64,000 nt of DNA, from positions 1 through 64,000 of the forward strand of contig SVAI01000001.1 in the NCBI GenBank assembly GCA_015059495.1. The letters run 5' to 3'. Made by a program: the position numbers and the translations under genes. How positions within the stretch are numbered: the stretch's first letter is position 1; every line of letters starts with the position of its first letter. Positions 50,691 through 51,920 of this stretch are shown piece after piece. The DNA comes from Bacillota bacterium. GTDB taxonomy: Bacteria; Bacillota_I; Bacilli_A; RF39; UBA660. The notes under the pieces were generated by a model, which did no database searches, was not told the origin of the DNA, and worked only from the letters and a program-made list of their open reading frames with translations.

Positions 50691-51920
50691 ATGCATAGAT
50701 TTAATAAAAATAAAGCTATTAAAAAATTATCTAATAGAAACAATGATAAAACTAAAATAATCTCAGTCTCAGTATCTATAGTAATTTTAATAGTTGCAAT
50801 TATATATTTTTCATTTGCTAGATTTGAATCAATAAATAAATATTCCCTAATTAGTGGAAAAGTAATTAGTTCTAAACCCGTTTTAATCAGCAAAAAAATG
50901 ATAAAATTGGAAACATCTGGTTCAGCAGATTTGGAATATGATGGAGTAGAAACACTAGGAGAAAATGGTACAGAAGATAATAATTTAAGATATGTTGGAG
51001 CTAATCCAAATAATTATGTATATTTTAACTGTAGTACAACTAATACATCAGAAATGAATGATAGTACATGTGAAAAATGGAGAATAATAGGATTATTTAA
51101 TAATATAGAAGATAATAGTGGAAATGTAGCATCAAGAGTAAAAATAATAAGAGATCAATCATTAGGTGATTATTCATGGGATTCTTCAGACTCAACGGTT
51201 AATAGTGGATTCGGAATCAACCAATGGGGTCCATCAGAAAATTATGAAGGTGCAGATCTTATGCGAGAATTAAATACCGATTATTTAGGAAATATAACAG
51301 TAGGTACTGATGGTAAATGGTATAATGAATCTAGTAATTCAAAAACAGCTAATATGCCAACATCAACATTAAATTCAAATGCTAAGGAAATGATACAAGA
51401 AGTAAAATGGAATACAGGTTCAAATGGAAGTAATGAATTTTCCACATTGACAACTAAAAATATGTATACATATGAGAGAAGTGAAAACACAGGAAAGATA
51501 TGTAGTAGTGGAACATATTGTAATGATGGTGAGAATAGAAAAACTACTTGGGTTGGAAAAGTAGCATTAATATATCCAAGTGATTATGGATATGCTACTT
51601 CAGGGGGAAATACATTAAATAAAAATGCGTGTTTAAATACAGTAATATTTGATTGGTATGATGATTCTGAAATAGAGGGAATAAGTGATTGTTATAGCAA
51701 TTCATGGATATATAATGAAAATTATTGGCAATGGACTCTTTCGCCTGGTGCGTATAGTGATGATGCCCGCCGTGTGATCCATGTCGTTAGTGGAGGCTAT
51801 GTTGGCAACAGTTATGCGAGCCATGCCGATGCGGTGCGCCCAGTAGTCTTCCTTCAATCATCAATCACCATTGTTGAAGGAATTGGTTCATCAGAGATGC
51901 CATATAAGTTAACGATGTGA
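50691..51920 (+). CDS. Membrane-anchored surface protein with C-terminal variable-region-like tract
   Basis: 409 residues. GAGGTGAGAAG precedes the ATG. An N-terminal helix (VSVSIVILIVAIIYFSFA) anchors it; the rest is outside, with Cys in FNCSTTNTSEM, STCEKWRIIGLFN and ICSSGTYCNDGE. The second half has the FGE/C-type-lectin-like layout: KVIIRD-type strand, LMRELN, WTLSPGA and VRPVVFL. From 51741 to 51840 the GC content is 58 of 100 bases by hand count in an otherwise very AT-rich gene. From Gly353 to Arg383, 25 of 31 codons end in C or T. This fits the variable region of a diversity-generating retroelement target protein. No reverse transcriptase or template repeat is in the window. Confidence 0.75.
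   Translation: MHRFNKNKAIKKLSNRNNDKTKIISVSVSIVILIVAIIYFSFARFESINKYSLISGKVISSKPVLISKKMIKLETSGSADLEYDGVETLGENGTEDNNLRYVGANPNNYVYFNCSTTNTSEMNDSTCEKWRIIGLFNNIEDNSGNVASRVKIIRDQSLGDYSWDSSDSTVNSGFGINQWGPSENYEGADLMRELNTDYLGNITVGTDGKWYNESSNSKTANMPTSTLNSNAKEMIQEVKWNTGSNGSNEFSTLTTKNMYTYERSENTGKICSSGTYCNDGENRKTTWVGKVALIYPSDYGYATSGGNTLNKNACLNTVIFDWYDDSEIEGISDCYSNSWIYNENYWQWTLSPGAYSDDARRVIHVVSGGYVGNSYASHADAVRPVVFLQSSITIVEGIGSSEMPYKLTM
51732..51850 (+). other. Candidate retroelement-diversified region (VR)
   Basis: Abrupt GC-rich tract encoding WTLSP ... RPVVFL at the end of the 50691 protein. NNC/NNT codons dominate, as expected when AAC/AAT codons of a template are mutated at adenines. The flanks (tggactctttcg and gtgcgcccagtagtc) look like conserved framework. 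Confidence 0.6.
51851..51880 (+). repeat. Inverted repeat just after the candidate VR
   Basis: CCTTCAA (51851-51857) pairs with TTGAAGG (51874-51880) across a 16-base loop. Retroelement targets often carry a hairpin or cruciform after the VR, but those have shorter loops, so the meaning is uncertain. Confidence 0.4.

Follow-up and report, generated by a model that had tools for sequence, protein, structure and literature searches.

An orphan variable region, probably frozen after the loss of its diversity-generating retroelement, ends a predicted membrane-anchored lectin-like protein of an uncultured Bacilli lineage

The DNA analysed here is a window of 64,000 nucleotides (25.6 % G+C) from a bacterial genome of 1,256,952 bases, which is assembled as a single contig with an estimated completeness of 92 % and has as its relatives MAGs of uncultured Bacilli / Erysipelotrichaceae. 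Positions 50691..51920 of the window hold an ORF on the forward strand (as are all features of the locus given below) for a predicted membrane-anchored protein of 409 aa, which its translation and paralog matches place in a family of diversity-generating retroelement (DGR) targets. An N-terminal membrane-spanning helix, IISVSVSIVILIVAIIYFSFA, was read directly from the sequence at aa 24–44 (50760..50822; helix 19–46 in the structural model), followed by an extracellular C-type-lectin-like / DUF6273-like domain at aa 63–409 (50877..51917), as defined by an AlphaFold2 model and structural alignment. The first ∼58 aa (50691–50870, MHRFNKNK...) recur alone elsewhere in congeners, G001 among them (E-values from 1e-5 to 1e-9), and apparently constitute a modular membrane anchor.

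Close to the end of the gene is a G+C-rich tract with a 5′ edge at TCGCCT (51741..51746), the Ser-Pro of WTLSP, as placed from the sequence and from template/variable region (VR) pairs of relatives, in some of which the TCGCC motif also starts the pair. There follows a DGR-type VR at 51747..51842 (codons 353–384, comprising 14 NNY and 18 other codons), delimited by composition and by relatives' templates, which carry AAY at the 14 positions and not at the 18. The 3′ anchor, GCGGTGCGCCCAGTAGTC (51831..51848), matches in position the G+C-rich invariant end of template and VR in relatives, and may play a role like that of an initiation-of-mutagenic-homing element. Beyond it lies an inverted repeat at 51850..51882, with arms of 9 bp (TTCCTTCAA at 51850–51858 and TTGAAGGAA at 51874–51882) around a loop of 15 bases. 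The initial annotation had listed this repeat alongside the tract, and it is indeed present; nevertheless, eight-bp stems with loops of 3–20 bases occur 212 times in the window (∼1 per 300 bp) and the other two VR-type paralogs of the genome lack the repeat, so it provides no evidence for a retroelement. At this chance-level frequency it was not credited as a DGR hairpin, and it is probably not part of the system. An Rfam search of the window returned one tRNA alone.

The composition of the tract was as initially claimed. A recount gave exactly 58 G or C among the 100 bases at 51741–51840, in a window where just four places reach ≥ 52 of 100 (a tRNA overlaps one of these), and the flanking WTLSP and VRPVVFL sequences were likewise found as described. 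The count of C- or T-ended codons between Gly353 and Arg383 also agreed (25 of 31, compared with 46 % in the remainder of the gene; binomial p = 8e-5), and third-position G+C over these codons was 15/31 against 14 % (p = 4e-6). At fourfold sites, 12/17 within the tract are G or C (C7 G5 T4 A1), as opposed to 10/128 in the remainder of the gene (A80 T38 C6 G4; Fisher p = 2.5e-8).

Reference templates were taken from two MAGs holding close relatives of the gene, Lapin-022 bin59 (G410) and Lapin-015 bin91 (G411), both of which align to 51747–51842 without gaps over 32 codons (353–384). Opposite the 14 AAY codons of the templates the tract has NNY throughout, with Asn retained at one of them, whereas the amino acid is unchanged at 12–13 of the 18 non-AAY codons (Fisher p = 0.0003–0.0008 for the contrast). 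None of 20,000 codon permutations did as well as the real tract, which scored 26–27 over the 32 codons compared with 13 for the best of 320 other stretches in the gene; when each template was compared without gaps along both window strands, it likewise matched best at the tract (54 and 53 of 96), all other places giving ≤ 43. When 11 family templates were compared at non-adenine sites, agreement with the tract exceeded that of synonymous recodings by 10.5 SD and that of codon permutations by 4.6 SD. In this 11-template test the AT-rich paralog tails L008, L009 and L066 scored near −0.5, and tails L003 and L002 had intermediate template scores, as decayed VRs would be expected to have. At the nucleotide level, identity of the tract to the relatives' templates at non-A sites is only 42/66, so that a cognate template has to be supposed and was not found; the contrast between A and non-A nucleotides in this comparison is modest (p = 0.01–0.03). 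The AAY-to-NNY relationship seen here holds against templates of relatives, rather than against a cognate one.

An abrupt jump in G+C inside one gene might alternatively result from horizontal transfer or codon bias with no link to a DGR, and would sit well with the absence of an orthologue adjoining the alpha-glucosidase gene in all three congeners that have alpha-glucosidase. We consider this origin very improbable, as the jump ends near the template boundaries of relatives, the codons line up with templates and differ at AAY-derived positions, and the templates find no match in AT-rich tails of paralogs. Moreover, the body of the gene is as AT-rich as its paralogs in the same genome, which are its nearest relatives (61–63 %).

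The AlphaFold2 model (50 homologues) had a pLDDT of 90.9 and a pTM of 0.84. Its best structural neighbour by VIA-align was 9qa6 (residues 32–304, Z 16.9), a match that falls within the N-terminal DUF6273 domain of the Thomasclavelia IgA peptidase, which comprises residues 31–322 (PMC12402451). The next matches, individually weak (Z 4–6), were C-type lectins, FGE-like enzymes and the Treponema DGR variable protein TvpA (2y3c). With sequence profiles, the protein did not reach the gathering cut-off of Pfam DUF6273 (PF19789; 15.8 of 23.5 bits, E = 0.013), seven of 50 aligned family members matched DUF6273 at E ≤ 0.01, and the family profile had no match among PDB sequences. In the model, the VR (aa 353–384 of 409) falls on the last strands of the domain (347–355, 358–365, 371–375 and 379–381), near the 3′ end of the gene in a C-type-lectin-like fold; from its fold, the domain may bind a ligand. 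The agreement of codons with relatives' templates, along with the predicted fold, thus supports 51747–51842 being a DGR-type VR at the end of a membrane-anchored, lectin-like target protein. Of the initial description as a diversified surface protein with a lectin/FGE-like variable end, the VR-type end, the membrane anchor and the lectin-like fold were upheld, and present diversification was not.

DGRs are common in the family to which this genome belongs. RVT_1 matched reverse transcriptases (RTs) in many family genomes, many of these RTs carrying the DGR hallmark GLPIGNxTSQ together with a YMDD box. With a profile of 13 of them, DGR RTs were found in 182 of 386 family genomes (47 %) and in 129 of 251 good genomes. 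At ≥ 15 loci, template and VR differ almost solely at template adenines (for example 13/13 differences at L080, 20/20 at L190, 21/21 at L192 and 12/12 at L184). Among the accessory genes of these elements are one for a bAvd-like protein, which scored under the Pfam cut-off, and one for a MutS-domain-I-like protein. The latter is a conserved protein of 120–133 aa located between template and RT (L257:2870–3235, −; L258:7859–8251, +; L080:8500–8901, +), with a weak likeness to MutS domain I (E 0.0035–0.022, below cut-off), and from its sequence is a possible mismatch-recognition accessory.

In G411, the RT is intact, and the single template adjoining it has matching tails on contigs other than its own. 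One of these, L096, differs from the template at 16 sites, all 16 being template adenines, whilst the L170, L103 and L098 tails look older, as 67–75 % of their differences are at adenines. In G410 (L258:7348–9617), a template and VR are still present next to an RT containing two TAG and four TAA codons, which from its sequence appears to be a DGR caught in decay. Stop-bearing RT copies were additionally seen in G414, G416, G418 and G422, and in several more cases in the family list. On one contig of a related CASRZP MAG (L125:1–2700), an AT-rich target tail occurs together with an interrupted DGR RT and with an A-rich stretch that resembles a truncated template; this is a candidate for another decayed DGR.

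None of this machinery was detected in the genome that holds the tract. Searches with RVT_1 and with the 13-sequence DGR-RT profile that matches in the 182 family genomes revealed no RT in the 1.257-Mb genome or in four congeners (0/5 for the genus). BLAST of 51700–51920 against its own genome, with seeds down to 14 bases, returned just the VR, the tails of paralogs and brief matches of the kind due to chance. When the entire VR was searched for as a degenerate base-or-A pattern (≤ 3 mismatches), it matched itself alone; these searches could miss templates with indels or without a ∼14-base seed. No Avd was found in the five genus genomes using a profile of two relatives' bAvd-like proteins, a search that had no positive control. 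That a remnant of the MutS-domain-I-like accessory might betray a lost cassette was considered and rejected, the matches (E = 0.03 and 0.24) not being credible. Accordingly, of the three components of a complete DGR (an RT with GxxxSQ and YxDD, a template and an Avd-like gene), none was found in the genome. This does not bear out the initial proposal that an RT and template lie elsewhere: RT, Avd and template all went undetected in a single-contig genome, as did RT and Avd in five of five genus genomes. That the genome yielded neither template nor RT speaks against current activity, and leaves present hypervariability unproven, whilst an origin in a DGR still stands.

The tract belongs to a paralogous family, with 11 full or near-full stretches and one partial match elsewhere in the genome. 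In three of those tails that were examined, a Y3-rich codon form goes together with a clearly high GC content, namely that at 51747–51842 (GC 0.57), L006 (401.7 kb, 0.46) and L007 (103.9 kb, 0.45), the remainder being AT-rich or intermediate. GC-rich tails also exist in the congener G001 (L219, 0.61; L224, 0.48; L218, 0.47; L225, 0.44). The tails L214 and L220 have a GC content of 0.24–0.26, below that of their own genes, and yet C or T is the last base of 77–84 % of their codons, a pattern to be expected from an old NNY tail drifting towards AT. Given that just three tails in a family of ∼12 members are clearly VR-like, the VR could have been imported as DNA, by recombination among paralogs or with RT-bearing neighbours, and not written in this lineage. 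We regard such an import as quite unlikely: the GC-rich stretch corresponds to the template unit rather than to any longer piece of donor DNA, its 3′ flank is like that of the genome's own paralogs, and no near-identical donor tail was present among the genomes searched.

The three VR-like tails of the genome differ from one another at 17–30 of 65 non-adenine sites; the templates of two separate MAGs differ at 11/96. The derivation of these three tails from one template was therefore rejected, and since one active template cannot explain such differences, we infer that they are orphan, frozen VRs. The same divergence makes the hypervariable binding site that had been proposed for the present-day protein unlikely.

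The main rival to the orphan reading is that the VR is active, its RT and template acting in trans from an element that the assembly lacks, such as a plasmid, prophage or unassembled island. Trans service has precedent in the G411 template, which writes VRs on other contigs, and in published remote variable proteins (PMC7517822); the tract also looks fresh, at 57 % G+C, and at an estimated completeness of 92 % a small element could be absent from the assembly. Opposed to this are the lack of an RT in all five genus genomes when 47 % of family genomes have one, and the disagreement of the three tails at non-adenine sites, too great for a single working template. In addition, the target gene had no match in viral contigs or in phage and plasmid records. 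On balance, we judge service in trans to be improbable, if less so than the other alternatives.

We therefore favour, at a probability of roughly 0.7, the interpretation that the tract is the orphan, frozen VR of a DGR target, the RT, Avd and template of which have been lost from the lineage. An ancestral DGR RT, with an Avd-like partner, would have copied a template RNA rich in AAY codons, misreading the template adenines. The resulting cDNA would have replaced the 3′ stretch of the gene by retrohoming, converting AAY to NNY with other codons fixed, and this rewriting would have altered the surface of a lectin-like domain displayed outside the membrane. The lineage would then have lost the RT, Avd and template, the tail being inherited as ordinary sequence. 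What the analysis shows is the composition, the match of codons to relatives' templates, the predicted fold and the failure to detect RT, Avd or template in the assembly; past writing by a DGR, loss as opposed to an unassembled element, and the lack of current activity are all matters that we infer. A counterpoint to very ancient freezing is that, although the genome is AT-biased, G and C still predominate at fourfold sites in the tract.

DGRs are usually discovered via their RT, and as a result orphan targets escape surveys. One metagenome survey required an RT adjoining the VR and, by its own statement, would not detect remote targets (PMC8144416). The protein described here shares an N-terminal membrane anchor and a VR with the cellular DGR targets of Firmicutes in that study; adenine-specific writing is a feature of those targets, and at this tract would lie in the past. 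DUF6273 domains resembling C-type lectins are known as DGR targets in gut phages, where they occur in tentaclins and second targets (PMC10743442). As in these, the fold is predicted to be DUF6273-like and of C-type-lectin form, with a VR on a surface hairpin and codons that would have been written by an RT; unlike them, the present protein is bacterial rather than phage-borne, membrane-anchored and below the Pfam DUF6273 cut-off, with a C-terminal VR and no nearby RT. Cyanobacterial remote variable proteins, including all3226, have remnant TR-VR homology with no proximal RT gene or pseudogene (PMC7517822), and DiGReF recorded a strongly mutated RT near distal targets (PMC3521204). The tract resembles the cyanobacterial cases in its dispersed paralogs, its C-terminal lectin VR and an orphan tail with no adjoining RT, but differs in that no RT was detected in the whole genome and genus, and in its phylum. 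Thus, orphan and remote targets are already known; what appears to be new is a member in a lineage from which the RT has apparently gone from the whole genus.

Composition and codon form were enough to recognize the VR, which the templates of relatives then confirmed, an approach that offers a route to DGR-shaped receptors in genomes lacking an RT, and that allows one to ask what becomes of a hypermutated repertoire after its mutator is lost. More tentatively, this genus of gut Bacilli may have dropped its DGR machinery and kept a repertoire of frozen, once hypermutated lectin tails, with repeated parallel decay of RTs in the family, or else a shared mobile RT, absent from every assembly of the genus, may still write the tails in trans; we hold this wider proposal as possible but doubtful. 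For such questions the family provides natural replicates: in some cases a working DGR serves targets in trans, in others a template remains next to an RT pseudogene, and in some genomes tails alone are found.
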